DNA of 34,885 nucleotides from Desulfobulbaceae bacterium (lineage in GTDB: Bacteria > Desulfobacterota > Desulfobulbia > Desulfobulbales > Desulfobulbaceae), in assembly GCA_011391865.1 (NCBI GenBank), contig JAABPV010000028.1, forward strand, positions 1 through 34,885, written 5' to 3'. Of the stretch, positions 5,906-34,348 are shown one piece after another. How positions within the stretch are numbered: position 1 is the first letter of the stretch; each line of letters starts with the position of its first letter. The notes beneath the pieces are model-generated. The model worked only from the letters and a program-made list of their open reading frames with translations, was not told where the DNA came from and made no database searches. The position numbers and the translations under genes are program-made.

Positions 5906-8900
5906 TCAGCTTTCCAGAAAAAGATCTATCCCGCGCAGCACCTCCTCCAGCTCAGCCTCTGTCTGCTGAAGCAGCTGCTCCGTGTTCCCGCCGCTATGTC
6001 GGCAGCTTTTCTCTAACTGGCCGGCAGTTTCATGCAAGGCTGCCGCGCCGATGGTGGCGGCCACGCCTTTCAAGGTGTGCGCAAGGCGGGACGCGCTGGC
6101 TGCGTCGCCATTCTGCCAAGCTGCTGCGAAACGCCCGGCGAAATCAGCCTGATCCTGCCGGAAAAGCCGCAGTATTCGGCGGTAAAATTCGGGATCGTGC
6201 ATGGTGTTAGCCAGTCCCTTTTCCGCGTCAATGCCGATCAATCCTGCAAAGCTGCCGTTCTTCTTCTGCGGCTCCTCAGGCGGGGGCGTGGCGACGCGGG
6301 GACGGTCTGGGCTAATCAAGCGGCAGAGTGCCGCCAGCAGTTCCTCCTCGCGGAAGGGCTTGCCGATGTGGCCGTTCATGCCCGCCCGCCTGCTTTTCTC
6401 CTGATCCCCGGACATGACATTGGCGGTCAGGGCGATCACCGGCAGATTTTTATGCTGCGGCTGCCGACGGATTTCCCGGCAGGCGGTGTAGCCGTCCATC
6501 ACCGGCATCTGAATGTCCATCAGGACAAAATCGAAGCTGTTTTTACGCAGCGCGTCCAAGGCTTCCGCGCCGTTGCAGGCCACAGTCACTTCGATGCCCC
6601 TGCGCCGAAGCAGGGCGATGGTCACTTCCTGATTGATCTCGTTGTCTTCAGCGAGCAGGGCTTTCAGGCCCCGTAGCTGCTCCGCGTCCGCATTCTGCTC
6701 CGGCAAAGACTCCGGCGCGGCGGTTTTGCCCAGCTCCAGCGGCAGAACAAAGGAAAAAATTGAGCCGTGGCCGTGGACGCTCTCCACGCCGATCACCCCA
6801 CCCATCAGCTCCACCAGCCGCTTGCTGATGGACAGACCAAGGCCGGTGCCGCCGTAGCGGCGGGTGATGGAGCTGTCCGCTTGGCTGAACACTTGAAAAA
6901 GATTCCGCTGCTGCTCCGGGGTCATGCCGATGCCGGTGTCGGCGACAGAGAAATGCAGAGCGGCCTTGCTGCCAGTCAGATCAGCCAGCTCGATCCGGAT
7001 GAGCACCCTGCCCTGCTGCGTGAATTTGACCGCGTTGTTGCCGAGGTTGATCAGCACTTGGCTGAGGCGGAGCGGATCGCCCCGAAAGCTGTCCGGCAGG
7101 CCGCGCTCCGTCTCAATGACCAGCTCCAGCCCCTTTTCCGCCGCCTTGAAGCCCAACACCCCGCGCAGGCTGTCCAGCGTTTCGCGCAGGCTGAAATCCA
7201 CCCGCTCAATGTCCATTTTGCCCGCCTCAATCTTGGAAAAATCGAGGATGTCGTTGATGATGCCGAGGAGCAGCTCGGCGGAGGAGCTAATTTTTTCCAG
7301 ATAGTTGCGCTGTCTGGGCGTGAGCGGCGTGGCTATGGCCAGCCGGGCCATGCCGATCACCGCGTTCATCGGGGTGCGAATTTCATGACTCATGTTGGCG
7401 AGGAACTGCGATTTAGCCTGACTGGCCGCCTCCGCCTCCTTGCGGGCCTCGACCAGCTGCCGCTCCATCCTGCGCTGCTCGGTGACATCCCTGCCGATGA
7501 CCACCAAGGCTTTGCGTCTGCCGTCCGGGTGGAAGAGCGGCATCTTGCGCACTTCAAAAAGGCGAGGTTTGCCGCTGCTGTCCACGCCCGTCTCGTCCTC
7601 AATCAGCATAGCCCCTTTGTTCCAAGTCCGCTGGTCGCTGGCTGTGCAGGCGGCAAGCACTTCCGTCAGCAGGGGCTGCGCTCTGCCGATCTCGCTGTCC
7701 GTTCTGCCCTGCCAGTCCAAACCTTCGACCTGAAAGAGCTTGCGGGCCGCCGCATTGGTCAGCCGCCAGCGGCCTGCTCCGTCCTTCAAAAAAGCCGCGT
7801 CCGGCAGCGTCTCCATGAACGTGGTTAACCGCTGATGCTGCTCGGTCAGCTCCGCCTCGGCCTCCTTGCTGCGGGTGATGTCGATGTGCACCCCCATCAG
7901 GCGCAGGGCATGGCCTTCATTGTCACGGGCCACCGTCCGGCCCAAGGACTGAATCCAGCGCCAGCCGCCGTCAGCGGCGCGCAAGCGGTATTCCACCCGG
8001 CACCGCCCGTTGTCTCGGTCAAGGAAGGGCCGCACTGCCTCGCCGATGGCGGCGAAGTCATCTGGGTGCATCAGCTCCTGCCAGAGCTGGCTGCTGCGGG
8101 GAAAGGCATCCGGCGCATGGCCGAGCATCGTGAAGAAGATGTCATTGGTGAGCAGCTCGCCGCTCTTGGGCCGCCAATCCCACATGCCCAGCCCGGCCAT
8201 CTCCAAGGCCAAAGCGAGCTGGCGGCGGCTATCCTCCAGCACTTCACCGGACTCGGTCAGCCGGTTCTCCATCCTGTGCAGAAAAACGTAATAAATCAGA
8301 AGCAGCCCGGAAGCCAGACCCAGCAGAACAAGCAGCAGCAGGCTGTTAAGCCTGCGGACGGTCATCAGCTTGTCCAGTTCATCGCGGACAAAAAGCAGGC
8401 TGCCTATTTTCCTGCCGCCTGCGTCCAGCAGCGGCAGGCTGTGCTCCATGCAGAACATGGCACTAGGCAGCAGCTTGCGCAGCAGTGTCCAAGCCAAGCT
8501 GCCGGGCTGCTGCGCTTGGCCCGGATGACCGCAGCCGACATGACGCTGCGGCAGTTGATCAAGCATGATCACCCGGTCAGGCAGAGCGTTCCAGTCCCCA
8601 GCCCGGCCCAGCATGATCATGCCCTGCTCCCAATCCAGTCGGCTAAGGAGGTGCTTTTTGAGCACCGTGAGCTGGTAGCCGTCAACGCTTTCCAGATTGT
8701 CAAAAACGCTTAGCAGAGTCGCCAGCTCCCGGCCCAGCTCCACATAGCCGATCAGCTGTCCCTGCTCGTCCTGCCACGGCATGACCGCCCGCAGGGTCAA
8801 AGTGCCCATTGGCCCCAGCTCAATCCCGGAAGCCTGCCTGTCCTGCGCGGCGGCTTGGTTCAACGTGAAGCGGTCGATCAGGTCGCTGCGCCGCTCCGGC

Positions 8901-9304
8901 TGATGCACCCGGAGAAAGCAGGTTTTGTCCGGCAGATGAAAATAAAAATGGGTGATCTTGCCGTATTGGCGGAAGTGCTCTTCAAAAGCGCGGGCGGCGC
9001 GGAGGAGCGCGTCCCGGTCGCGGGCGGCGAAAAGCTGGCGCAGCTCGCGGTTTTCGCTCAGTGTCAGGAGAAGGGTTTGCAGGGTCTGCGTTTCTTCCTC
9101 GATCCGGCGCTCATACAGGCCGCTGAGCATCGCCCGCCAATCGCTCTTACGCACGGCATCCTGCTGCTGGTACATCCAGAGGGCCGAGAGCGCGTAGGCC
9201 GCGCTCAGCAGCAGCAGGCAGGCCAGCAGGCCGCAAAAAACATGCTTTTTGCCCGCGCAGGCGGCACCGTTCCGTGCGGCGAGGATGGTGGTGTTCAGAC
9301 TCAT
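5906..9304 (-). CDS. Membrane hybrid sensor histidine kinase (dCache - PAS - PAS - HK - REC - HPt)
   Basis: This 1132-residue protein senses an extracytoplasmic signal and runs an internal His-Asp-His relay. Domains in order: membrane segment about 23-44; periplasmic double-Cache domain of the dCache_3 type about 50-310 (HFYFHLPD, RVHQPER and DLIDRFTLNQA motifs); membrane segment about 319-342; PAS 365-480; PAS 492-612; HisKA with phospho-His640 in NMSHEIRTPMN; ATPase core with N757, DTGIGM (789) and GGTGLGLSIS; receiver with Asp930 in DFVLMDIQMPVMDG; HPt with His1076 in AHTLKG. The minus-strand ATG at 9304 has GGAGG about 10 bases upstream; the longer open frame is not needed. It is transcribed divergently from the corrinoid operon, 159 bases away. 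Confidence 0.93.
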   Translation of the reverse strand: MSLNTTILAARNGAACAGKKHVFCGLLACLLLLSAAYALSALWMYQQQDAVRKSDWRAMLSGLYERRIEEETQTLQTLLLTLSENRELRQLFAARDRDALLRAARAFEEHFRQYGKITHFYFHLPDKTCFLRVHQPERRSDLIDRFTLNQAAAQDRQASGIELGPMGTLTLRAVMPWQDEQGQLIGYVELGRELATLLSVFDNLESVDGYQLTVLKKHLLSRLDWEQGMIMLGRAGDWNALPDRVIMLDQLPQRHVGCGHPGQAQQPGSLAWTLLRKLLPSAMFCMEHSLPLLDAGGRKIGSLLFVRDELDKLMTVRRLNSLLLLVLLGLASGLLLIYYVFLHRMENRLTESGEVLEDSRRQLALALEMAGLGMWDWRPKSGELLTNDIFFTMLGHAPDAFPRSSQLWQELMHPDDFAAIGEAVRPFLDRDNGRCRVEYRLRAADGGWRWIQSLGRTVARDNEGHALRLMGVHIDITRSKEAEAELTEQHQRLTTFMETLPDAAFLKDGAGRWRLTNAAARKLFQVEGLDWQGRTDSEIGRAQPLLTEVLAACTASDQRTWNKGAMLIEDETGVDSSGKPRLFEVRKMPLFHPDGRRKALVVIGRDVTEQRRMERQLVEARKEAEAASQAKSQFLANMSHEIRTPMNAVIGMARLAIATPLTPRQRNYLEKISSSAELLLGIINDILDFSKIEAGKMDIERVDFSLRETLDSLRGVLGFKAAEKGLELVIETERGLPDSFRGDPLRLSQVLINLGNNAVKFTQQGRVLIRIELADLTGSKAALHFSVADTGIGMTPEQQRNLFQVFSQADSSITRRYGGTGLGLSISKRLVELMGGVIGVESVHGHGSIFSFVLPLELGKTAAPESLPEQNADAEQLRGLKALLAEDNEINQEVTIALLRRRGIEVTVACNGAEALDALRKNSFDFVLMDIQMPVMDGYTACREIRRQPQHKNLPVIALTANVMSGDQEKSRRAGMNGHIGKPFREEELLAALCRLISPDRPRVATPPPEEPQKKNGSFAGLIGIDAEKGLANTMHDPEFYRRILRLFRQDQADFAGRFAAAWQNGDAASASRLAHTLKGVAATIGAAALHETAGQLEKSCRHSGGNTEQLLQQTEAELEEVLRGIDLFLES

Positions 9305-9380: not shown

Positions 9381-9409
9381 TTGACCAAAGCCGCCCGGAG
9401 CGGTACAAT
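9381..9409 (+). promoter_or_regulatory. Sigma70-type promoter of the corrinoid/methyltransferase/kinase operon
   Basis: TTGACC (9381-9386) and TACAAT (9404-9409) are separated by exactly 17 bases, a near-consensus sigma70 promoter. Transcription would start near 9416, leaving a leader of about 48 bases before the ATG at 9464. The leader is too short for a cobalamin riboswitch. Confidence 0.7.
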
Positions 9410-9463: not shown

Positions 9464-10102
9464 ATGACTGGAGCGGACAGCGGCGTTGATTTTTTTGCGG
9501 GCAGACTTCTCGCCCTTGACCGTCTCGGCGCGGAGCGGATGCTGCTCAAGGAGGCGCAGGGCAGTCCCTTCAGGGCGGTGGAGTGCCTGGTGGTGCCCGC
9601 CTTGGAGGAAATCGGCAGACGCTGGGAGCGGGGCGGTGTCGCCTTGGCTCAAGTGTACATGAGCAGCCGCATCTGCGAGGAGCTGATGGAGGAAATGCTG
9701 CCAGCTTCCAGCCCGGAGCGGATCCGCTGTCCGAAAATCGCCATAGCCCTGCTTGACGACTATCACGCCTTGGGCAAAATGATTGTCTGCGCCGCGCTGC
9801 GGGCCAGCGGCTGCGCTGTCCGCGACTGGGGCAGGCTGACAGCCGAGGAGCTGGCCGCGCAGGTCGTCCGCGAGCAGGTCGGCATCGTCCTCATTTCCGC
9901 GCTCATGCTCCGCTCCGCCCTGCAAGTGAGAAAAGTCCGCCAGCTGCTCGACGCTGCCGGTTCTCCGGCGAAAATTATTGTCGGCGGCGCGCCGTTCCGC
10001 TTTGACCCGGAGCTGTGGCGCGAGGTGGGCGCGGACGCGGCAGGTGGCAACGCCGCCGAGGCGGTGCGGGCAGTGGCCCGCTGCGTGGCGGAGCTGACCT
10101 GA
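9464..10102 (+). CDS. Corrinoid (B12)-binding protein, methyltransferase-associated
   Basis: The 212-residue protein has the two-domain build of methyl-carrier corrinoid proteins (MtaC/MtbC/MetH-like). A helical cap is at about residues 12-85 (LVVPALEEIGRRWERG). A Rossmann-like B12-binding domain spans 88-210, with the cobalt-ligating motif D99-Y-H101-A-L-G104, followed by the LISALM, IIVGGAPF and GADAAGGNAAEAV segments expected around the nucleotide tail. I chose the ATG at 9464, with AGGA eight bases upstream, because the cap starts there. It is the first gene of a four-gene operon and overlaps the methyltransferase start by one base. In known systems such a protein shuttles a methyl group between two methyltransferases; here its partners are one URO-D-like enzyme and two kinases. 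Confidence 0.88.
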   Translation: MTGADSGVDFFAGRLLALDRLGAERMLLKEAQGSPFRAVECLVVPALEEIGRRWERGGVALAQVYMSSRICEELMEEMLPASSPERIRCPKIAIALLDDYHALGKMIVCAALRASGCAVRDWGRLTAEELAAQVVREQVGIVLISALMLRSALQVRKVRQLLDAAGSPAKIIVGGAPFRFDPELWREVGADAAGGNAAEAVRAVARCVAELT

Positions 10103-11133
10103 TGTGTCCGACGGAAATGACTTCGATGGAGCGGGTGCTGACCGCCCTCAGCCACCGCGAGCCGGACCGTGCTCCGCTCTTTCTTTTGCTGACCATGCAC
10201 GGGGCTAAGGAACTGGATCTGAGCATCCGGGATTATTTTTCCACGGCTGAACACGTGATTGAGGGACAGCTCCGTCTGCGGGCAAGGTACGGCCACGACT
10301 GCTTTTATTCCCTCCTTTACGCTGCGGCGGAGATTGAAGCCTTTGGCGGCGAGGTGATTTGGTATGAGGACGGCCCGCCCAACAGCGGTGCGCCGTTCAT
10401 CCGCCGTCCAGAAGACATCCTTGATTTAACCGCCCCAGTGCCGGAAGACATCCCTTGTCTGCGCCGGACGCTGGAGGTGATCGCGGGCCTCAAGGAGCGG
10501 GCGGGCGGCGAGGTGCCGATCATCGGTGTGGTGATCGCGCCTTTTTCTTTGCCGGTGATGCAGATGGGCTTCCCATCCTACATTGAGCTGATCTACGAGC
10601 AGCCCGCCCTGCTCCGCCGTCTGATGGCGGTCAATCAGGAATTCTGCGTCGCTTGGGCCAATGCCCAATTCCGTGCCGGTGCCACGGCGATCTGTTATTT
10701 CGACCCGCTGGCCTCGCCGGACATGATACCGCCGGAAATTTTTTGTCAGACCGGACTGGCGGCGGCGCGGCACTGCCTGAGCCGCTTCAGCGGCCCTGCC
10801 GTCATGCACATAGGGTCAGGCCGCTGCCTGTCGATGATTAAGGAGCTGGCCGCTGTCGGCGCGGTCGCTTTGTCGGCTTCTGTTTTGGAGGACTTGACCG
10901 AGGTCAAAGCGGCCTGTAAGGGCAAAATCGCAGTGGCGGGCAATCTGAACGGCATTGAGATGCGCCGCTGGACACCAGCTCAGGCGGAGGAGAAAGTGCG
11001 GCAGGCACTTGCCGCCGCTGCCGGCGGCGGCTTCATCCTTGCTGATAACCATGGCGAAATTCCTTGGCAGGTGAGCGACGAGGTGCTGCTGGCCATCGCC
11101 GAAGCGGCGCGGCGGCTGGGCCAAAAACGGTGA
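10102..11133 (+). CDS. URO-D superfamily methyltransferase-like protein (MtaA/CmuA type) with altered metal ligands
   Basis: The 343-residue protein has the fold signature of the uroporphyrinogen-decarboxylase superfamily branch that moves methyl groups from corrinoid proteins to thiols (MtaA, MtbA). Features are MERVLTALSHREPDR near the start, IGVVIAPFSL, the IAVAGNLNG strand and a final GGFILADNHGEIP. In zinc-dependent members the ligands sit in HIC and in a later Cys of S-GC-IP. Here the first reads H236-I-G and the second D-N-H317-G-E-I-P, so both Cys are missing. The ATG at 10102 overlaps the corrinoid gene stop by one base; 10117 and 10126 are alternative starts. A true methyltransferase with other ligands, or a methyl-corrinoid binding sensor, are both possible. 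Confidence 0.8.
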   Translation: MCPTEMTSMERVLTALSHREPDRAPLFLLLTMHGAKELDLSIRDYFSTAEHVIEGQLRLRARYGHDCFYSLLYAAAEIEAFGGEVIWYEDGPPNSGAPFIRRPEDILDLTAPVPEDIPCLRRTLEVIAGLKERAGGEVPIIGVVIAPFSLPVMQMGFPSYIELIYEQPALLRRLMAVNQEFCVAWANAQFRAGATAICYFDPLASPDMIPPEIFCQTGLAAARHCLSRFSGPAVMHIGSGRCLSMIKELAAVGAVALSASVLEDLTEVKAACKGKIAVAGNLNGIEMRRWTPAQAEEKVRQALAAAAGGGFILADNHGEIPWQVSDEVLLAIAEAARRLGQKR

Positions 11134-13022
11134 AAAACCCTGCATCGCTCTGCTTTTTAGTCTGCGAGTATCTTCGGCCTGAGACTGAAGCGGCAGTGCG
11201 GACGCAGAATCTAACCGAGGCGCAGGTCAGAGACTTTCCTGCCCGCTGCGGTCGTCCGTTCGTGGACCGGAAAGAACTGGCCGCGCTGCTCCGGGAGATC
11301 AAGCCGGGTTTTGCCGAAATCATCGGCTCCCGCTGTCTCGCCCCGAACCTCTACCTCGGCGGCAGCCGGGTGCGGCGGGCCGAGCAGTGCGCCCATTTTC
11401 TGTGCAGCCCGACTATGGTCAGGCATCTCCGTCAGAGCGGCGCGGGCCTGATCCTTCCGGGCTGGCTGGCGCGCTGGCATCAGCGGCTGGCCAGCTGCGG
11501 CGAAGACCGGCTCAAAGTGCAGCACGAGCTGTTCGGCGAGGAGATCAGCCGCTTGGTGCTTTTGGACACCGGCACGGACGAGATGGCAGGTTGGCATTTG
11601 GACGAGCTGTCCGCTTTTCTCCGGCTGCCCGCCGAGGTGGTGCCGGTGGGCTTGGAATATCACGGCCTGCTGCTGACCAAAATCGCGGCGGAGCACCGGC
11701 AGCAGGAGCTGGAGCGGCAGAAGGAGCTGGCCCGGCAGCAGAACGCCCAGGCGGCCATGACCTTTGATTTGCTCGGTTTGGTGGTCAAGGCCAACTCTGA
11801 GCCGGAGGTGCTTGCCGGCATTGCCGGGCTGTTCACCATGCTCTTCGCGCCCCGGCGGATATGCTGCATTCCGGCAGGCAAAAACGGTCTGGCGGCGGAG
11901 CGGCTGGAGCTGAGCGACGAGGAGCGGCAGGCAGCGGAGCGGTTCTATTCAGATAGCCACAGGCAGCATCAGCTGAACAAGAACGGCGACAGCTTTTTCC
12001 TGCGCATTGGCGCGGACGAGCAGACCGCCGCCGTAGTGCTGGTGGAGGAGGTCGCTTTTCCCCAGCACATCCGCTCCTATCTGAACGCCGCCCTGCATCT
12101 TTCCGGGGTCTGCGCCTTGGCGGTCGAGCATGTCCGCACTCTGAAAAAGCTGCTGGACACGTCCCGGATGGCGGGCAAGGCCGAAGTGGCCACTGAGGTG
12201 CTGCACAATGTCGGCAACACTTTGAACAGCGTCTCTGTCTCGGCAGAGCGGCTGGGCGAGATGGCGCGGCAGAGCAGCTGCGCCACCCTGCCGGAGATCG
12301 TCCAGCTGATTGAGGAGCACAAAGACGATCCGGCTGTCTTTTTCAGCAGCGACCCCAGAGGCCGCAAGCTGCCGTTGTATTTCGCCAGCCTCTCCAGCCA
12401 GCTGCTCAAGGAGCAGGCCAAGATGGTGGAGGAGGCGGCCTGCCAGCTCCGACATGTCCGCCGGGCGGTGGAGATCATCCGCACTCAGCAGGACGCAGCC
12501 AGAGGTAAGGGGCTGATTGAGCAGTTCGAGCTGGCCTCGGTGATTGAGGAGAGTTTGGAGATTTTCGAGCAGAAAATCGCCGACCGGAAAATCACTGTGG
12601 AGCGGTGTTACGCGCCTCTGCCGGTCATGCGCGGCGAGCGGCACAAGATTCTTCAGATCGCAGGCAACCTGATCAGCAACGCGGCGGAATCTTTTGACGG
12701 CACCGGGCCGGACGGGCGGAAGATCATCCTCAGGCTGCTGCCCGTCAAAGGCAGGCAGGCGGCCTTGGAAGTGGAAGACAACGGCAAGGGCATCAGCAAA
12801 GCGGTGATGGAGCGGCTCTTCGCCTTCGGCTTCACGGCCAAGGAGGACGGCCACGGCTTCGGCCTGCACAACGCGGCGAACTTGGCGGCGGAGATGAGGG
12901 GGACGCTGACCGCGTTCAGTCCAGGCGAAGGCTGCGGCGCACGGTTCCGGCTGGAGCTGCCGACAGCGGCGGGAGAGGGACATGAGAAGAAACGACGGCG
13001 GCGGCAGGATACTGATAGTTGA
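11130..13022 (+). CDS. Histidine kinase with N-terminal DUF1638-like domain
   Basis: A GTG start at 11130, overlapping the preceding stop by four bases, gives a soluble 630-residue protein. Residues about 5-185 resemble DUF1638, a family of unknown function often encoded beside corrinoid methyltransferases: C-YLRPE near the start, GLILPGWLARW, RLVLLDTGTDE and a final GLLLTKI. Cys8, 12, 40, 69, 87 and 92 are candidate ligands. A Gln/Glu-rich coiled coil (185-210) and a GAF-like region (about 210-335) follow. Then comes a kinase of the 'HNVGN' type, with H359 in EVLHNVGNTLNS, and an ATPase domain with NLISNAAESF, DNGKGI and GFGLH. It overlaps the next gene by 41 bases. The DUF1638 assignment is by pattern and needs a profile search. 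Confidence 0.75.
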   Translation: MKNPASLCFLVCEYLRPETEAAVRTQNLTEAQVRDFPARCGRPFVDRKELAALLREIKPGFAEIIGSRCLAPNLYLGGSRVRRAEQCAHFLCSPTMVRHLRQSGAGLILPGWLARWHQRLASCGEDRLKVQHELFGEEISRLVLLDTGTDEMAGWHLDELSAFLRLPAEVVPVGLEYHGLLLTKIAAEHRQQELERQKELARQQNAQAAMTFDLLGLVVKANSEPEVLAGIAGLFTMLFAPRRICCIPAGKNGLAAERLELSDEERQAAERFYSDSHRQHQLNKNGDSFFLRIGADEQTAAVVLVEEVAFPQHIRSYLNAALHLSGVCALAVEHVRTLKKLLDTSRMAGKAEVATEVLHNVGNTLNSVSVSAERLGEMARQSSCATLPEIVQLIEEHKDDPAVFFSSDPRGRKLPLYFASLSSQLLKEQAKMVEEAACQLRHVRRAVEIIRTQQDAARGKGLIEQFELASVIEESLEIFEQKIADRKITVERCYAPLPVMRGERHKILQIAGNLISNAAESFDGTGPDGRKIILRLLPVKGRQAALEVEDNGKGISKAVMERLFAFGFTAKEDGHGFGLHNAANLAAEMRGTLTAFSPGEGCGARFRLELPTAAGEGHEKKRRRRQDTDS

Positions 13023-14754
13023 CGACAATCCTGAAATTCACCGCGATATCAGAAAAATACTGCTCCAGCAGAGCGAGTCGCTGGAGCTGGACAGCCTGGT
13101 CGCCGACATCATCGGCAGAAAGGCTCCGGCTGAGGAGCCGCCGCCGCTGTTGATCGACTCCGCGTTCCGGGGCGAGGAGGCGGTGGCCATGGTCCGCGCC
13201 GGGCGGCAGGAGCGGCGGCCCTACGCGCTCGCCTATGTCGACATGCGGCTTCAGCCCGGCATGGACGGCCTCAAAACCATCCGGCGGCTTCAGCAGGAGG
13301 ATTATCAGCTCCAGTTTGTGATCATCACCGCCTATTCCGACTACTCTTGGCAGGAAATCAGCTCTGTCCTCCTTTCCGCCGACAAGCTGCTGATCCTGAA
13401 AAAGCCCTTTGAGGCGATTGAAATCCGCCAGTCAGCCAGTGCCCTGCTGGAAAAATGGCGGCTGACCGTTGAGCACCGCCAAGCCATGTCCGCGATTGTC
13501 ATGCAGCGGAACATGCTGGAGGAGCACGTGCGCGAGCAGACCGCCGAGCTGCGCCACACCAACGAGCTGCTGACCAAGGAAATCAAAGAGCGGCGGCGGG
13601 CGGAGGAAAAAATTCGCCTTCACCGCGACAGCTTGGAAAAGCAAATTGAGCTGCGCAGCGCGGAAATCCTTCAGCAGAACCGCTTCCTCAGCACGGTGAT
13701 CAACTCCCTGCCGCATCCCTTCGCAGTCATCGATGCGGCCACCTGCCGCATCCTCGCCGCCAACCGGGCCGCAGGCAGCCAGGCCGCTGGCCGCGACCAT
13801 CTGAAAACCTGCTACCAGTACATGCACGGATTCAGCTGCCCCTGTTCCGAACAGGGCCTGCGCTGTCCCCTTGAGGAAGTCCTTGCCCAAGGCAAACCGG
13901 TGACTTTGGAGCATGTCTGGCCCGATCCTTGGGGCAAAGATCGGATCATGGAGATTCATGCCTGTCCGGTGACGGACCGGCAGGGCAAAATCACGCGGGT
14001 GATTGAATACTGCGTGGACATCACCCGCCGCAAGCAGATGGAGGAGGAGCTGATCCGCAGCCGGAAATTGGACACCGTCTCGCTGATGGCCGGCGGCATC
14101 GCGCATGATTTCAACAATCTGCTCATGGCCATCATCGGCGGCACTGAGCTGGCGATGATGAAGCTCCATCCGGCGCATCAGGCGTTAGAATTTCTCCGGC
14201 AGACGGTCTCCTCAGCCTCGGAGGCTAAGGAGCTGGCCCACAAGTTTCTGCTTTTCTCCAGCTTTGCGCCGCCGGAGCGGCAGGCTGTGCCGACCGCCAA
14301 GCTGCTCGCCGCCGCCTGCGAGGAGGCAGGCACCGGAGTGGATCTGCGCCTGCCGGAGGGTCTTTGGCCAGTTCATGCCGATCCCGGCCAGACTGCTCAG
14401 ATGCTGCGGGAGCTGCTCCGCAACGCCGCCGAGGCGATGGCTCCGGCAGGCGGACGGAGCACGGTCAGCGCGGAGAACATCGAGCTGGCCGGCAACGAGG
14501 CTGCCGGAGTCAAGGCTGGAAATTACGTCCGCATCACGGTCAGCGACCATGGCCGGGGCATCCGCAAGGAAGATCTGCCCAAAATTTTTGACCCCTATTT
14601 TTCCACCAAAACGCGGGGCGCGGTCAAAGGCATGGGCTTAGGGCTGACCATTGCCGCCTCAATCGTCAGTCAGCACGGCGGCTGCATCCGGGCGGAGTCT
14701 GCACCGGGAGCAGGCACTGCCGTGCATGTCGACCTGCCAGCGGCTCAGGACTGA
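12982..14754 (+). CDS. Receiver - PAS - histidine kinase protein
   Basis: This 590-residue cytoplasmic protein begins with a receiver domain (LIVDDNPEIH; phospho-acceptor Asp87 in YVDMRLQPGMDG; TAYSDYSWQE; LILKKPF). The receiver has about 30 extra residues before the Asp, a known long-REC subtype. A coiled coil (about 165-235) leads to a PAS domain (235-350) with clustered Cys (CYQYMHGFSCPC, then RCPLEE). The kinase core has H375 in GGIAHDFNNLL, then RNAAEAM, DHGRGI and KGMGLGL. It probably receives phosphate from the preceding kinase and signals onward. The start at 12982 has a purine-rich GGGAGAGGG upstream. The last 10 bases overlap the 3' end of the convergent kinase gene. Confidence 0.9.
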   Translation: MRRNDGGGRILIVDDNPEIHRDIRKILLQQSESLELDSLVADIIGRKAPAEEPPPLLIDSAFRGEEAVAMVRAGRQERRPYALAYVDMRLQPGMDGLKTIRRLQQEDYQLQFVIITAYSDYSWQEISSVLLSADKLLILKKPFEAIEIRQSASALLEKWRLTVEHRQAMSAIVMQRNMLEEHVREQTAELRHTNELLTKEIKERRRAEEKIRLHRDSLEKQIELRSAEILQQNRFLSTVINSLPHPFAVIDAATCRILAANRAAGSQAAGRDHLKTCYQYMHGFSCPCSEQGLRCPLEEVLAQGKPVTLEHVWPDPWGKDRIMEIHACPVTDRQGKITRVIEYCVDITRRKQMEEELIRSRKLDTVSLMAGGIAHDFNNLLMAIIGGTELAMMKLHPAHQALEFLRQTVSSASEAKELAHKFLLFSSFAPPERQAVPTAKLLAAACEEAGTGVDLRLPEGLWPVHADPGQTAQMLRELLRNAAEAMAPAGGRSTVSAENIELAGNEAAGVKAGNYVRITVSDHGRGIRKEDLPKIFDPYFSTKTRGAVKGMGLGLTIAASIVSQHGGCIRAESAPGAGTAVHVDLPAAQD

Positions 14755-17357
14755 ACTTTCGCCTCGTCCAGCACATCTCTGACCAAAGCGGCCAGCTTGG
14801 TCGTGTTCAGCGGCTTGATCGCATAACGGCGCACGCCCAAGGCCAGCGCGTCCTTTTCGGTCAGGGCAGTGGTATAGCCGGTGCAGAGTATCACCGGCAG
14901 ATCAGGCCGCAGCTGAAGCGCGGCTTTAACCAGCTCGCTGCCGGTCAGGCCAGGCATGGTCTGATCGCTGATCAGCAGGTCAAATGCCTCCGGCCGCGTT
15001 TGCAGCCGCTCCAAGGCCGCCGTGCTGGAAGTCTCGGCAACCACCGAGTAGCCCAGCGTGCTGAGGATGGCTTGGCTGATGTGGACGATGGACGGCTCGT
15101 CATCAACAAACAGAATGCGCTCCGTGCCGCTGGGCAGCTGCATTTCACCCGCCTCTTCCGGCGGCCCGTCTGTCTCCTCCGGCAGCGCAGGCAGATAGAC
15201 ATGGAAGACTGAGCCTTTGCCCAGCTCGCTCTCCACCTCAATGAAGCCGCCGCAGTCTTCCACCACGCCGAGCGTGACAGCCAGACCCAGGCCGGTGCCC
15301 GCGCCCGGCTCCTTGGTGGTGAAATAAGGATCGAAAATGCGGCCCTTGGTTTTTTCGTCCATGCCGCTGCCGTCATCCCGCACTGTGAGAACGATGTAAA
15401 AGCCGGACTGAAGCCACGGCCTGTCCTCCCGCTGCGCCGCCGTCAGCTCAACGCGGCGGAGGATGACCTCCAGATTCCCCTGCTTGGCACCGATGGCGTG
15501 GTAGGCGTTGGTGCAGAGGTTCAGGACAATCTGATGGATGCTGGTGGGATCGGCCAGCGCAAGGCCACTTTTTTCGTCGATCTCCGCCTTGATGCTGATC
15601 GAAGAGGGCAGCGAGGAGCGCAGCATTTTCACCGCCTCCTTGACGATCAGGTGAATCCGCAGCGGCCTTTTCTGGTGCGCGCTCTTGCGGCTGAAGGTGA
15701 GGATCTGTTTGACCAGCTCGGTGGCCCGGTTGCCGGCGATGATCACCTGCTCCAAATCGTTGAGGGCGTTGCTGCCCTCAGGCAACTCCATCCGGGCCAG
15801 CTCGGTGTAGCCGAGTATGGCGGCGAGGATATTATTGAAATCATGAGCGATACCGCCTGCTAAGGTGCCGATGGCCTCCATCTTCTGGGCTTGGAACAGC
15901 TCCTCTTCCAGCCTTTTTTTGTCCGTGACATCGTGAGCGATGTAGACAAAATAGAGAAACTCGCCTGCCGCGTTCAGCACCGGCGCGGCGCAGACATTGA
16001 AGAAGCGGCTGATGTTCTTGTGCTCGATGCCGCCGCAGTGCTTCTGAAAATCCTGCATGGCCCGCACGCCGGGACAGCCTTCGCAGGGCTGCCCGCTGCC
16101 CCGGAAAAGGCTGTGGCAGGTTCTGCCGATCAGCTTTTCCGGCGGCAGATGGAAAAACTCAAAAGCCGCCTGATTGGCGCGGATGATCCGCATGTCCTTG
16201 TCCTGCAAGGTGATGATGTCCGGGATCGCGTCAAAAGTGCTCTCCCACTCTTCAGTCTTGCGGATGAGCTGCTCTCTGGCCTTCTTCCGCGAGGTCACGT
16301 CCTCGTAGACCGCGACGATCTCGCCGGTGGGCAGTTTGTAGACATAATATTCCAGACAGGGCAAGGCAACCTCCTCTCCCTTGCCGCGTTTTCCTTGAAT
16401 GCAGGCGGAGACCGAAAGATTCTCCGGCGCGCCGCTCTGCGCCACCCGCCGGAAGACTTCCGCCAAGCCGGTCTCGGCGAAGCCGGGAAAAATCTCCTCA
16501 GGTCTGCGGCCCGCCAAATCGCTGCCCGCGTCAACATGGGCGATGCGCATTCCAGCAGGATTAACCCGCTTCAGCCGGAATCTCTCGCCGTCCTCGGTTT
16601 CATAAACCGCGATGCCGTTAGAAATGTTGTCAACAATGCCGCGTAAATATTGCTCCTGCACGGACAGCCTCCCTTCCGCCTCCGCCCGGCGGGTGAACTG
16701 CCTGCTGGTTTGAGAATAAAACAGCCACAGCCCCGCCGTGCCGATCAGGTAAATCAGCAGATGATAGAAGAGGCTGGTTTTGAACTGATCTTTGAAGAGC
16801 GTGACTGTCTCTTCCATCGGCAGGGTGACGCTGATGCCGCCCCGGATGCTGCCCGGCGGATAGCTGTTTTCAACATGGCATTTGAGGCAGGACGGATCCA
16901 TGACCGCAGGAATCATGACCCGCATGTAGGTCTGGCCGTCCTTACTGATCATCTCCGCCACATCCGCCGCTCCTTCCTCAAAGCGATGCAGCGCGGCCTC
17001 TTCCCACGGATCAGGGCGGTTGTCCTTGTCTATCAGCCGCAGGCTGGTGATGTTGCCCCGGATGCCGAAGCGTTCCTGCTCCAGCAGATACGCTTCGCGG
17101 GTCATTTTGGCCGGATTGATCAGCGTTGTGCTGTCAGTAGCAGCCAGCACACCGCCGTGGCCGGAATTCCATATCTGATAGATGTAATCCTTGCGGCTGG
17201 CGGTCAGACCGATCTCTCTGCCGATGAATTTGAGATTGTGCCATTCGCTGTACGAGAGAAAGACAAAGGAGCCGTTGAGCAGGAGCGTCCAGAAAACAAA
17301 ACCTGCCGCGCACCAGCAGCGGAGATGCTTGAGGTAGGAGTGCAGTTTTTTGTCCAT
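14745..17357 (-). CDS. Hybrid sensor kinase with periplasmic c-type haem (DUF3365/Tll0287-like) domain
   Basis: The 870-residue protein has a membrane segment at about 14-35 and a periplasmic domain at about 40-190. That domain carries one CxxCH motif, C157-L-K-C-H161, within PSCLKCH, and the RGGISVTLPM segment typical of DUF3365/Tll0287-like haem sensors. A second membrane segment is at 195-214. Cytoplasmic domains are PAS (about 230-355), PAS with a Cys cluster (370-480, CEGCP), HisKA with H505 in GGIAHDFNNIL, ATPase with DDGSGM and GTGLGLAV, and a C-terminal receiver with Asp798 in LLISDQTMPG. It probably senses redox state or a gaseous ligand through covalent haem. It is convergent with, and overlaps by 10 bases, the receiver-kinase gene. 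Confidence 0.9.
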   Translation of the reverse strand: MDKKLHSYLKHLRCWCAAGFVFWTLLLNGSFVFLSYSEWHNLKFIGREIGLTASRKDYIYQIWNSGHGGVLAATDSTTLINPAKMTREAYLLEQERFGIRGNITSLRLIDKDNRPDPWEEAALHRFEEGAADVAEMISKDGQTYMRVMIPAVMDPSCLKCHVENSYPPGSIRGGISVTLPMEETVTLFKDQFKTSLFYHLLIYLIGTAGLWLFYSQTSRQFTRRAEAEGRLSVQEQYLRGIVDNISNGIAVYETEDGERFRLKRVNPAGMRIAHVDAGSDLAGRRPEEIFPGFAETGLAEVFRRVAQSGAPENLSVSACIQGKRGKGEEVALPCLEYYVYKLPTGEIVAVYEDVTSRKKAREQLIRKTEEWESTFDAIPDIITLQDKDMRIIRANQAAFEFFHLPPEKLIGRTCHSLFRGSGQPCEGCPGVRAMQDFQKHCGGIEHKNISRFFNVCAAPVLNAAGEFLYFVYIAHDVTDKKRLEEELFQAQKMEAIGTLAGGIAHDFNNILAAILGYTELARMELPEGSNALNDLEQVIIAGNRATELVKQILTFSRKSAHQKRPLRIHLIVKEAVKMLRSSLPSSISIKAEIDEKSGLALADPTSIHQIVLNLCTNAYHAIGAKQGNLEVILRRVELTAAQREDRPWLQSGFYIVLTVRDDGSGMDEKTKGRIFDPYFTTKEPGAGTGLGLAVTLGVVEDCGGFIEVESELGKGSVFHVYLPALPEETDGPPEEAGEMQLPSGTERILFVDDEPSIVHISQAILSTLGYSVVAETSSTAALERLQTRPEAFDLLISDQTMPGLTGSELVKAALQLRPDLPVILCTGYTTALTEKDALALGVRRYAIKPLNTTKLAALVRDVLDEAKVQS

Positions 17358-26096: not shown

Positions 26097-27227
26097 ATGC
26101 CGCAATCGTTAGACAAGCTGACCATCAAAGGCTTCAAGTCCATTCAGTCGCTGGAGAATTTTGAACTGCGGAAACTGAATGTGCTGATTGGCGGCAACGG
26201 GGCGGGGAAAAGCAATTTCATTGATTTTTTCCGCCTGCTGCGTGCCATGATGGAACTGCCGCTGCCCGGCCTTACCAATACAAGCCTGCACTCTTATGTT
26301 GTTACCGAAGGCCATGGCAGTGATGCTTTTTTGTTCAATGGGCCGAAGGTTACGCCTCAGATAGAGGTAGAAACAATGTTTGGACAAAATGGTTATCGCT
26401 TCAAATTAGTTCACACCACAGAAGAACTATTTATTATCAATGAAGAGGAAAGATATTATTCAGGAGGATATAAGCCATGGAGAAGGATTGGTGATTGGAG
26501 CAATGCTCCTGTCTTGCTTATAGATAAAGATAACGCCGGGTTTTATGGAATACGCAACGCATCTTCCTATGTTTATGAAGCGATATCTTCTTGGAAAATT
26601 TATCACTTTCATGACACCAGCAAAAACGCGCCGATGCGCCGTTCGGAGACCGTTGACGACACGGAATATCTCCGATTCGACGCAGCAAATATCGCTCCAT
26701 TTTTATATCATTTAAAAGAAAATAACGCTGATTCCTATCGGCAAATCGTTGATGCTGTGCGGCTGGTTGCGCCATTCTTTGGTGATTTTATTCTCAAACC
26801 AGCGCAGGATAAGGTGCGGCTGAACTGGCATCAAAAAGGCTCTGATTATCCGCTGCGGCCAATCCATCTTTCTGACGGCACTCTGCGTTTTATGTGCCTT
26901 GCCACAGCATTGCTTCAGCCGAATCCGCCGTCAACGATGATCATTGATGAGCCGGAATTGGGGCTGCATCCTTACGCCATCGAAATATTGGCGGAACTGA
27001 TTCAAGCAGCGGCAGAAAGAACACAGCTAATTGTTTCAACGCAGTCTCCATCCTTGGTTGACTGTTTCCAGCCGGAAGATGTGGTGGTGGTCACAAGAGA
27101 AAAAGGCGCATCCATCTTCAAGCGGCTGAATGTGCAAGAGCTTTCCGCTTGGCTTGAAGAGTATTCTTTGGGCGACCTTTGGCGCAGAGGCATTGTTGCA
27201 GGAGGCCCTGCGCATGAGACGGATTGA
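26097..27227 (+). CDS. AAA family ATPase (COG4637-like, OLD/ABC-type), probable defence ATPase
   Basis: The 376-residue protein has the SMC/ABC-like ATPase layout of OLD-family and related defence ATPases. It begins with DKLTIKGFKSI, and Walker A is GGNGAGKSNF at about 33-42. A central insert with low conservation follows (about 90-215). The signature LSDGTLRFM comes before Walker B MIIDEPELGLHP, then the STQSP segment. It overlaps by 14 bases a DUF4276 gene with Toprim-like residues. ATPase + Toprim-like pairs of this kind (PARIS, RloA/B, AbiL) act in phage defence; a similar role here is inference. The middle of the gene is more AT-rich than its neighbours, suggesting transfer. Confidence 0.82.
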   Translation: MPQSLDKLTIKGFKSIQSLENFELRKLNVLIGGNGAGKSNFIDFFRLLRAMMELPLPGLTNTSLHSYVVTEGHGSDAFLFNGPKVTPQIEVETMFGQNGYRFKLVHTTEELFIINEEERYYSGGYKPWRRIGDWSNAPVLLIDKDNAGFYGIRNASSYVYEAISSWKIYHFHDTSKNAPMRRSETVDDTEYLRFDAANIAPFLYHLKENNADSYRQIVDAVRLVAPFFGDFILKPAQDKVRLNWHQKGSDYPLRPIHLSDGTLRFMCLATALLQPNPPSTMIIDEPELGLHPYAIEILAELIQAAAERTQLIVSTQSPSLVDCFQPEDVVVVTREKGASIFKRLNVQELSAWLEEYSLGDLWRRGIVAGGPAHETD

Positions 27228-27909
27228 GGTTGTCATCATCGCGGAAGGGCCAGCCGAGCAGACCTTTGTGCGTGATATTCTTGCGCCGAACATGGCGATG
27301 AAAGGCATTTTTCTACATGCTTCATTGATTGGCAAAAGCGGACATAAAGGCGGCGACATCCGCTTTGAGCGGGCAAAGAGCTATATCGGCAATTTCCTCA
27401 AGCAGCGGCCTGATATTTACGTGTCAACGATGCTTGATTACTTCAGAATTGATTCTGATTGGCCGGGAAAAGAGCAAGTCAGCAGGCAAGTAAAGAGCGG
27501 AGCTGTGCTTTCCGCCGCCAAGAAAGCCGAGCTGTTGGAAGAGGCAACGCGGCAAAAAGTTGTTGAGAGCTTCGGCGGCAATAATGCAAACCGTCGCTTC
27601 ATTCCGTACATTTCCATGCACGAATTTGAAGCTCTGCTCTTCAGCAATCCCGTTGTGCTGGCAAAAGAACTCAGTGTTGATCCGAAGATTATTCAAAAAA
27701 TTCTTGCCGAATGCGGCAGCCCGGAAGAAATCAATGACCGCCCGGAAACTGCGCCTTCCAAGAGAATAGCCGTTTTGACGAACGGATACCGGAAGATTGC
27801 AATGGGCAAGACGATTGCTGAAAGCATAGGAATTCCAGTCATGCGGCGGAACTGCCCTCATTTTGACCAATGGCTGACCACTATCGAGCAGCTTCAGAAA
27901 GAGCCATAA
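27214..27909 (+). CDS. DUF4276 family protein (Toprim-like), partner of the AAA ATPase
   Basis: The ATG at 27214 inside the end of the ATPase gene gives a 231-residue protein. It begins RRIEVVIIAEGPAEQTFV, with the acidic residue placed as in Toprim motif I. At about 68-80 it has MLDYFRIDSDWPG, which supplies a D...DxD pattern. The later segments NRRFIPYISMHEFEALLFS and KRIAVLTNGYRKIAMG are hallmarks of DUF4276. Members are usually encoded next to COG4637-like ATPases. A nuclease or effector role triggered by the ATPase is plausible by analogy with PARIS/OLD systems but is not shown. A gap of 22 bases separates it from the DAHP synthase gene. Confidence 0.8.
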   Translation: MRRIEVVIIAEGPAEQTFVRDILAPNMAMKGIFLHASLIGKSGHKGGDIRFERAKSYIGNFLKQRPDIYVSTMLDYFRIDSDWPGKEQVSRQVKSGAVLSAAKKAELLEEATRQKVVESFGGNNANRRFIPYISMHEFEALLFSNPVVLAKELSVDPKIIQKILAECGSPEEINDRPETAPSKRIAVLTNGYRKIAMGKTIAESIGIPVMRRNCPHFDQWLTTIEQLQKEP

Positions 27910-32027: not shown

Positions 32028-33509
32028 ATGCTCCGCACCGCGCTGAACAGTTCTGACGATTTCTCCTTCACCTATGAGCTGGTTCCAGGTCAAGGCTGCT
32101 GCGGCAAAAAGGTTGAGCGTTTGCTGGATTTCGCCCGCGCTGTTAAGGCGGACGGAAGAATTAAGGCCCTGTCCGTCACAGACAATCCGGGCGGCAATGC
32201 TGCCTTGGCTCCAGCGGCCATTGGCACCGAGCTACTCCGATTGAACATCGAGCCTCTGATCCACTTTTCTCTCAAGGATAAGAACCGCAGTCAAATAGTC
32301 AGCCACATCTACCTCTACCAGCGTCTGGGCCTGCGTTCTCTCTTGGTGATGGGCGGCGATTTCCCCAGACCCGGCTACTGCGGCCAAGCGCGTCCGGTCT
32401 TTGATCTTGACAGCATTCAGACCCTGCAACTCATGCGTGAGATGGAGAGCGGCCAGCAGCCTGGCTGCATCCTAAGTCACGAGCTGCCGCAGCTCCGCCT
32501 CTTCAAGGGCTGCGTGGTTTCTCCCTTCAAGGCAACAGAGGCCGAACAGGTTTGGCAGTTTGCCAACTTACTCCGCAAGGTCCGGGCTGGAGCCGACTTC
32601 ATTGTCAGCCAACTGGGCTTTGATCTGCGCAAGCTGGAAGAGCTGATGACCCTGCTCCGGCGCGAGCATGTCCGCCTGCCGGTACTGGCCAATGTCTTCA
32701 TTCCTTCCTTGGCAACAGCGCGGGCTATGGCCGCAGGCAAGGTGCCCGGCGTGCTGCTTCCCCCGGAACTGCTCAAACAGATAGAACGGGAGGAAGCAAC
32801 TGGTGACAAGCAGGCCCGCCTTGACCGTGCTGCGGCGATGATTGTCCGTTGCAAACGCGGCGGCTGTCGAGGTGTGCATCTCGGCGGCAGCGGGTTGCGT
32901 TTCGAGGAAGTCAGCTATATGTTGGACCGCTTTGAGCAGTGGGACAAGGAAGCAGCGCCCTCTTTGCCGCCCTGCGATTTCCCTCTGCACAAGACCTGGT
33001 ACTTCTACCAAGACAAGGCGGGCCGCAGCGGGGAAGCTGTCCCGCTCACGCCCGGTAGCAAGCGCGGCTTGGTCAAGCTGCGTTCCCTCAGTCATCACCT
33101 CTTATTTCAGCAGCAACTCACCAGTAGGCTCTTTGGCCGCATCTGCTTGTTTTGCGCCCAAGGAAGCCGCAGGGCCGCTGCCTTGACCCAAGTTGAACGC
33201 TGCATTAAAAGGCTGCTGTTCAACTGCCGCATGTGCGGTGACTGCACCCTGTCCAGCTCGGCCTTTCTCTGTCCGCAAGCCGGGTGTCCTAAGCGGCTGA
33301 CCAATGGCCCTTGCGGCGGTAGTCACTTAGGATTTTGCGAGGTGCATCCTGAACGCCGCTGCTTCTGGGTGCGGGTGTATGAGCGGCTTGATCAGCAGAC
33401 TGCTTTGCAGCATCTGGCTGCGCTGCCGCATCTGCCGCCCAAGGACTGGGCCTTGGAGCATAGCTCGTTCTGGATCAGCTTCTTCACCAAACAGCAGAGG
33501 GGTAAATGA
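32028..33509 (+). CDS. Methylenetetrahydrofolate reductase with C-terminal MetV-like Cys-rich domain
   Basis: The 493-residue protein joins a MetF-like TIM barrel (about residues 10-310) to a C-terminal Cys-rich domain like MetV (MTHFR_C type). The barrel has FTYELVPGQGC near the start, ALSVTDNPGGNAAL, PLIHFSLKDKNRSQI, LLVMGGDFPRPG and GADFIVSQLGFDL. The tail includes CRMCGDC, LCPQAGCPK and NGPCGGS. MetF reduces methylene- to methyl-tetrahydrofolate. In anaerobes with the Wood-Ljungdahl pathway, MetV helps couple this reaction and may hold an Fe-S or zinc site. A single fused gene is less common than separate metV and metF. It overlaps rsmI by four bases. Confidence 0.85.
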   Translation: MLRTALNSSDDFSFTYELVPGQGCCGKKVERLLDFARAVKADGRIKALSVTDNPGGNAALAPAAIGTELLRLNIEPLIHFSLKDKNRSQIVSHIYLYQRLGLRSLLVMGGDFPRPGYCGQARPVFDLDSIQTLQLMREMESGQQPGCILSHELPQLRLFKGCVVSPFKATEAEQVWQFANLLRKVRAGADFIVSQLGFDLRKLEELMTLLRREHVRLPVLANVFIPSLATARAMAAGKVPGVLLPPELLKQIEREEATGDKQARLDRAAAMIVRCKRGGCRGVHLGGSGLRFEEVSYMLDRFEQWDKEAAPSLPPCDFPLHKTWYFYQDKAGRSGEAVPLTPGSKRGLVKLRSLSHHLLFQQQLTSRLFGRICLFCAQGSRRAAALTQVERCIKRLLFNCRMCGDCTLSSSAFLCPQAGCPKRLTNGPCGGSHLGFCEVHPERRCFWVRVYERLDQQTALQHLAALPHLPPKDWALEHSSFWISFFTKQQRGK

Positions 33510-34348
33510 CGAAAGAGCACGGCACGCTGCACGTGGTGGCCACGCCCATTGGTAACTTGGGAGATGTCAGCCAGCGCATGAGAGAGACGCTGGCCGCAGC
33601 CGACGTGATTGCCTGCGAAGATACCAGGCACACGCGCAAGCTCCTCTCTCACATGAACATCAGAGCCAAGCTGGTAAGCTGCCGCCGAGAGAACGAGCAG
33701 GAGCAGGCCGCCACACTGGTTGCGCGGCTGCTCGCAGGAGAAGATGTGGCCTTCGTCTCTGACGCTGGCACCCCCGGACTTTCCGACCCTGGAGCAGCGG
33801 TGGTGCGGGCTGCGAGGGCCGCAGGACTCAGCGTACTACCGGTGGCCGGCCCCTCGGCCTTGGCTACCGCCCTCTCTGTGGCGGGCTTGGACAGCACCTC
33901 CTTCTATTTCGGCGGCTTTCCAGCAGCAAAGCCAAGCACACGGCGGAAGCAGTTCGCCGCACTCAAGCTGCTGCCCTGCCCTTTAGTCTTCTATGAGGCC
34001 CCACACCGCATCGAGGCTGCTTTGGAGGATTGTCTGGAGGTCTTTGGCGACCGCCCAGCCCAAGTGTTCCGCGAGCTGACCAAGCTGCATGAGGAGCATC
34101 TCTCCGGGCTGCTGTCCGAGCTGCTCGCTGCCTTGCGGGGCAGAGCTAAGGGCGAGATGGTACTGATCGTCACCGGCTGTGAGCCTGCTACAGGGGAGAA
34201 AGAAAAGCCGGACAACTTAGATGAGCTGATCCTCTGGCACCGGGAGCAAGGCAGCTCACTCAAGGACGCTGCTCGCCAGATCGCAGCTGACCTTGACCTG
34301 CCCAAATCACAGGTTTATCAGCAGGCACTGAAGCTGTGGAGCGCGTAA
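33506..34348 (+). CDS. rsmI: 16S rRNA (cytidine1402-2'-O)-methyltransferase RsmI
   Basis: RsmI uses S-adenosylmethionine to methylate the ribose of C1402 in the decoding centre of 16S rRNA. The 280-residue length is normal. Family motifs are LHVVATPIGNLGD at the start, IACEDTRHTRKLL, VAFVSDAGTPGLSDPG, FYFGGFPA, LVFYEAPHRI and the C-terminal helix bundle with KGEMVLIV. The start overlaps the MetF/MetV gene stop as ATGA, so the two are co-translated. Confidence 0.96.
   Translation: MTKEHGTLHVVATPIGNLGDVSQRMRETLAAADVIACEDTRHTRKLLSHMNIRAKLVSCRRENEQEQAATLVARLLAGEDVAFVSDAGTPGLSDPGAAVVRAARAAGLSVLPVAGPSALATALSVAGLDSTSFYFGGFPAAKPSTRRKQFAALKLLPCPLVFYEAPHRIEAALEDCLEVFGDRPAQVFRELTKLHEEHLSGLLSELLAALRGRAKGEMVLIVTGCEPATGEKEKPDNLDELILWHREQGSSLKDAARQIAADLDLPKSQVYQQALKLWSA

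Follow-up and report, generated by a model that had tools for sequence, protein, structure and literature searches.

A contig of 34,885 nucleotides from a Desulfobulbaceae bacterium (GCA_011391865.1, JAABPV010000028.1), referred to here as the window, carries four overlapping plus-strand genes at 9464-14754, which may together encode a corrinoid-based sensor. The source genome (G000) is 2.8 Mb and 95% complete. The coordinates given in the initial annotation of this DNA were borne out. P1 (9464..10102) encodes a corrinoid-binding protein with a B12-binding_2 cap and a B12-binding domain. P2 (10102..11133) overlaps P1 by 1 base and encodes a URO-D-fold protein without the zinc cysteines of MtaA. 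P3 (11130..13022), which has a GTG start and overlaps P2 by 4 bases, encodes a DUF1638-GAF-histidine kinase, and P4 (12982..14754), overlapping P3 by 41 bases, encodes a receiver-PAS-HisKA-HATPase kinase. A sigma-70-like promoter, TTGACC-17-TACAAT, lies upstream at 9381..9409 on the same strand. It had been described as near-consensus and matches 10 of the 12 hexamer positions; it is suggestive only, since three sites in the region pass the cut-off against 0.6 expected. In two of three same-genus relatives TTTAAC/TAAAAT is found at its place, and the third has no such hexamers.

Relatives were searched with P3, and the DNA flanking the full-length homologues was compared. The loci in relatives are numbered L031 and onward; clade A denotes the clade that includes the window, and clade B a second clade. 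The four-gene order occurs in other genomes of the same genus and in other genera of the family (L031-L037; in L036 the contig ends just upstream of P3), and also in two other families (L177; L184-L185). An additional upstream URO-D gene is present in some genomes of one genus; in L189 and L190, by contrast, P3 comes after the corrinoid gene with no URO-D gene in between. Further off in the phylum the first three genes only are found (L038, L039, L140, L141, L178, L179, L181 and L201). In clade B (L142, L144, L145 and L192-L194), DUF1638 comes after a related corrinoid/URO-D pair and is in most cases a gene of its own. All clade A DUF1638-GAF proteins examined, except that of L183, have corrinoid and/or URO-D genes directly upstream. 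The initial annotation had expected a true system to keep its gene order in distant genomes. Because the order is kept across families and deep in the phylum, we regard the genes as a system and not as a cluster unique to this genome; a chance cluster is ruled out by the same conservation. In a maximum-likelihood tree of the URO-D proteins, clade A forms one group (support 99/100) and clade B another (100/99). Distances among the corrinoid, URO-D and DUF1638-GAF proteins co-vary (rho 0.62-0.78), an outcome also expected from common ancestry by itself. Among the three, conservation is highest in the URO-D protein, with a mean identity of 57% versus 47% and 32%.

The output joined to this front end changes from locus to locus. 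DUF1638-GAF is combined with an HNVGN-type kinase in the window, L031-L037, L177 and L184-L191, with a HisKA kinase in L038, L141 and L179, with a hybrid kinase in L181 and L201, and with a GGDEF domain (diguanylate cyclase) in L039 and L178. DUF1638 is combined with PAS-HD-GYP in L142, and a hybrid-type kinase is the gene after the separate DUF1638 in L145, L192, L193 and L194, where the call in L192 and L193 was made from protein length and a kinase profile of our own instead of Pfam. In the URO-D tree the two GGDEF cases do not group as sisters; support for some of the branches that separate them is less than strong. Since one front end is joined to changing outputs, these sequence comparisons argue strongly that the corrinoid/URO-D/DUF1638 cassette is a sensory input module rather than a metabolic pathway.

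P1 has full cap and Rossmann domains, both with Pfam matches above cut-off (PF02310, E 2.2e-18; PF02607, E 4.7e-10). The DxHxxG motif reported earlier is intact (D99, H101, G104; DNA 9758-9775) and invariant in nine aligned sequences, so that P1 has the domains and the motif of an MtxC-type protein. It scores below the cut-offs of the named subfamilies (MtbC, 56.3 bits versus 350; pyl_corrinoid, 55.8 versus 215.3; MtgC, 44.6 versus 370). The best structure matches of the P1 family are the methylamine-type corrinoid proteins 7xcn and 3ezx. Weaker matches include 8j2y, a GGDEF-domain protein, and the cobalamin-binding proteins 8j2w and 8j2x, which are photocobilins.

P2 matches URO-D (PF01208, E 5e-49). 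The best fold match of its model (predicted local distance difference test score, pLDDT, 92.8) is MtaA (4ay8; Z 40.7, root-mean-square deviation 2.2, 333 residues aligned), followed by HemE structures (Z 34-38), which places P2 in the URO-D/MtaA fold. Its scores are below the NCBIfam cut-offs for MtaA and MtbA (105.5 bits versus 244 and 97.6 versus 235.4, respectively). In the alignment with the MtaA zinc site (H-x-C plus a second Cys), P2 keeps H236 (10807-10809) and both Cys positions are replaced; an MtaA-type enzyme is ruled out by the absent zinc ligands. The E-x14-E-x20-H zinc motif of O-demethylases is not present in P2. Both zinc cysteines are gone in 30 of the 31 URO-D proteins of sensor operons, and the protein of L193 keeps the first only (HHC). 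The second is replaced by a DN(H)GEIP loop in clade A (DNHGEIP at 11044-11064 in P2) and by other residues in clade B. Among clade A proteins H236 is invariant and the loop nearly so.

Most URO-D proteins encoded in catalytic corrinoid operons of relatives keep the zinc cysteines. HIC and the second Cys are found in L202_3727, L202_5724, their L203 counterparts and two L205 proteins; they are not kept in L202_6695 and L203_6095, and L205_14118 has FVC instead of HIC. The operons at L202 (3083-9456) and L203 (3419-8859) each contain three URO-D genes, one of whose products has no zinc cysteines, and a gene for a protein of about 615 residues, which in L202 is RACo; L202 also has cobW. In L034, L035, L187, L188 and L191, an extra URO-D gene lies upstream of the corrinoid gene, and the URO-D copy adjoining P3 is without the His of the DNHGEIP loop.

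The initial annotation had reasoned that the operon holds an MtaA-like enzyme without the MtxB methyltransferase that such enzymes normally need. No MtxB is indeed encoded in the operon, no MttB (PF06253) protein was found in the genome, and no MtxB-type gene is among the flanking genes annotated in the sensor loci, where not every neighbour was scanned. The argument itself is weak, because P2 has no zinc cysteines and could itself be the substrate-specific enzyme. The UroD superfamily includes the substrate-specific methyltransferase I (MT I) enzymes CdmB, MtvB, OdmB and MtoB, of which CdmB contains no zinc and is active (PMC13222342). Since zinc-free MT I enzymes exist there, P2, which has the URO-D fold and a corrinoid partner encoded by another gene, may be a UroD-type substrate-specific methyltransferase by analogy. 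This undercuts the argument from the missing MtxB and leaves the sensor idea intact.

The N-terminal domain of P3 (11130..11654) had been called DUF1638-like. P3 itself has no PF07796 match at E<=0.1; homologues with the same N-terminus are above the cut-off (E 3e-7 to 1e-10). The domain has metal-ligand-like cysteines at C12, C40, C69 and C87. Across 32 sequences C12 and C87 do not vary and C69 is mostly kept, whereas the C40 position has Cys in clade A and, outside it, mostly His; in the DUF1638 model (pLDDT 93.5) the four come after successive strands. The GAF domain at 11748..12158 (residues ~207-343), overlooked in the initial annotation, matches the fold of the KdpD GAF domain (Z 13.9, root-mean-square deviation 2.5, 132 residues aligned). 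GAF matches filled the list in the structure search with the P3 model, and fold relatives of DUF1638 were barely probed by it. The histidine kinase part (12162..12965) has the H-box LHNVGN with H359 and a HATPase_c domain (PF02518, E 6e-16). In Phaeobacter inhibens, whose methionine synthase is split, a DUF1638 gene adjoins the gene for its B12-binding part and is required, along with a RamA-like protein, for methionine synthesis, and in alpha-proteobacteria the occurrence of DUF1638 tracks a RamA-like reductive activator; no specific function was proposed by the authors (PMC5764234). The Phaeobacter inhibens phenotype links DUF1638 to corrinoid proteins. At L143 (5738-9559), genes for a PAS kinase and then a sigma-54 response regulator come after a separate DUF1638 gene, and no corrinoid or URO-D gene was recognised nearby. 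At L182 (7109-9270), URO-D and DUF1638 pieces are spread over several frames, which points to frameshifts or assembly errors.

In P4 the receiver, PAS and HATPase_c domains are above the Pfam cut-offs and HisKA is below. The receiver has the expected D14, D87 and K141, and the kinase has H375; with H-box and HATPase_c present, the assignment to two-component kinases holds. In sensor loci P4 occurs only alongside an HNVGN-type P3. Because of this, and because the P4 receiver residues are intact and P3 itself lacks a receiver, P3 probably phosphorylates P4 (H359 to receiver D87). The two-kinase relay proposed initially would be one version among several, since other loci have one kinase only, a diguanylate cyclase or HD-GYP. 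As had been noted, the operon does not encode the final output.

Outside the operon, a convergent hybrid kinase gene (14745..17357, minus strand), also missed initially, encodes a Tll0287 sensor domain and a CLKCH haem motif. Each of the 11 other family loci examined likewise has a convergent CxxCH hybrid kinase beside P4; Pfam confirmed the Tll0287 domain for the window and L034 only. On the other side of the operon lies a divergent hybrid kinase gene (5906-9301, minus strand; dCache_3, PAS, HisKA, receiver and Hpt), and divergent kinases like it, of ~1140-1190 aa, are found in the same-genus loci L031, L032 and L033.

Within the genome, where a gene may have been missed at 95% completeness, P1 alone was found to carry PF02310 or PF02607. 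No methionine synthase of the MetH type was found, there being no PF02607/PF02310 protein besides P1, and classic MttB-type demethylation lacks its PF06253 protein in the genome. Cobamide is probably made, given the presence of the CobS, CFeSP and RACo families, and the genomic RACo is explicable by CFeSP. No shared metabolic neighbour that would name a substrate is among the annotated flanking genes of the sensor loci, which are unrelated housekeeping genes.

We propose that the operon encodes a multi-protein chemical sensor with a methyl-corrinoid mechanism, and give this whole explanation a probability of about 0.5. P2 would bind a methylated small molecule and transfer the methyl to the P1 cobalt. 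The P3 DUF1638 domain would dock on P1 and read the state of the cobalt, methyl-Co(III) versus Co(I)/Co(II), possibly via a metal site formed by the four Cys, one of which is mostly His in clade B. The change would be relayed by the GAF domain to H359 of the P3 kinase and then to D87 of the P4 receiver, and P4 would signal to a response regulator encoded elsewhere. That methyl transfer or the methyl-corrinoid state is the signal has, in our judgement, a chance a little short of even. Several points weigh against this proposal. Methyl transfer, corrinoid binding and signalling are all inferred from sequence, and contact between P1 and P3 is an assumption. P2, having lost the zinc ligands, may not be catalytic. 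What the model gives for the four DUF1638 Cys is their order along successive strands, so the metal site is putative. RACo was not seen among the annotated flanking genes of the sensor loci, a scan that did not take in all neighbours, and a Co(I) enzyme that turns over would have to draw on RACo from another locus.

The loss of both MtaA zinc cysteines from P2 and nearly all its sensor-operon relatives also favours the main rival, a redox or oxygen sensor in which the redox state of the P1 cobalt and/or the DUF1638 metal site would be read and P2 would be a scaffold or ligand gate. The four invariant or well-kept DUF1638 Cys (Cys/His at one place), the CxxCH haem hybrid kinase next to the operon in all family loci examined, and the tracking of a reductive activator by DUF1638 in alpha-proteobacteria (PMC5764234) are in line with such a sensor. 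However, the URO-D protein is conserved better than the other two, and H236 is invariant and the DN(H)GEIP loop nearly so among clade A members, features that suggest a specific ligand or reaction; moreover, the zinc-free UroD-superfamily methyltransferase CdmB is active (PMC13222342). We consider redox sensing unlikely, though it is the strongest of the rivals.

Metabolic use is less probable still. The enzyme folds are intact and the CFeSP and RACo families are in the genome, so P1 and P2 could be a demethylation system that feeds methyl groups to metabolism under the control of its own kinases. Yet the annotated genes of the sensor loci include neither a methyl-accepting methyltransferase II (MT II) nor RACo, whereas one relative's catalytic operon has its own RACo and a zinc-Cys URO-D protein; GGDEF and HD-GYP, and not just kinases, are joined to the front end; and the annotated neighbours are unrelated housekeeping genes. 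The operon would be a light sensor of the CarH or photocobilin kind if its signal were photolysis of an alkyl-corrinoid held by P1, and 8j2y, 8j2w and 8j2x are indeed among the weaker P1-family matches. The closest matches are of the methylamine type (7xcn and 3ezx), however, and the W-x9-EH motif of CarH-type photoreceptors is not in the P1 cap, which has W54-x9-V64-Y65. Cable bacteria, moreover, live mostly in dark sediment. Light sensing is therefore very improbable.

Elsewhere in the window, an AAA_21 ATPase gene is followed by an overlapping DUF4276 gene (26097-27909), possibly a defence-type pair, and a gene for methylenetetrahydrofolate reductase with DUF5981 is followed by a tetrapyrrole methylase gene with a 4-base overlap (32028-34348).

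B12-based sensing and two-component signalling are each already known. No published description of a B12/URO-D/DUF1638 sensor was found in the open-access literature searched. We tentatively suggest an undescribed sensor class, in which a complete corrinoid methyltransferase pair would be the receptor and DUF1638 the reader, plugged into two-component or cyclic-di-GMP outputs; its novelty is provisional, and its distribution was surveyed within the phylum. If the methyl-corrinoid proposal is true, a bacterial sensor uses a methyltransferase system as its receptor, feeds kinases and cyclic-di-GMP enzymes, and measures a methylated compound by chemically demethylating it; its corrinoid protein would also be the sole one of the MtxC/MetH type to have been found in this relative of the cable bacteria. 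DUF1638, which has a phenotype without a proposed function (PMC5764234), here behaves as an input domain tied to corrinoid proteins.

Among known systems, the methylcobamide:coenzyme M methyltransferases MtaA and MtbA include the best fold match of P2, which differs in having neither zinc cysteine and in scoring below the family cut-offs. The cobalamin sensors CarH, AerR and photocobilins likewise couple a B12-binding domain to regulation, once to GGDEF; here, in contrast, three separate proteins are used, one partner has a methyltransferase fold, and the CarH motif is absent. In split MetH and glycine betaine systems, too, DUF1638 proteins are linked with a corrinoid protein, whereas here DUF1638 is fused to or placed beside signalling outputs, an input-domain role not described in the literature searched. 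The UroD-superfamily MT I systems (CdmBC, MtvB, OdmB and MtoB) are alike in pairing a URO-D-fold protein, zinc-free in CdmB, with a separate corrinoid protein; the sensor operon differs from them in that the place of MT II is taken by a DUF1638 signalling protein.

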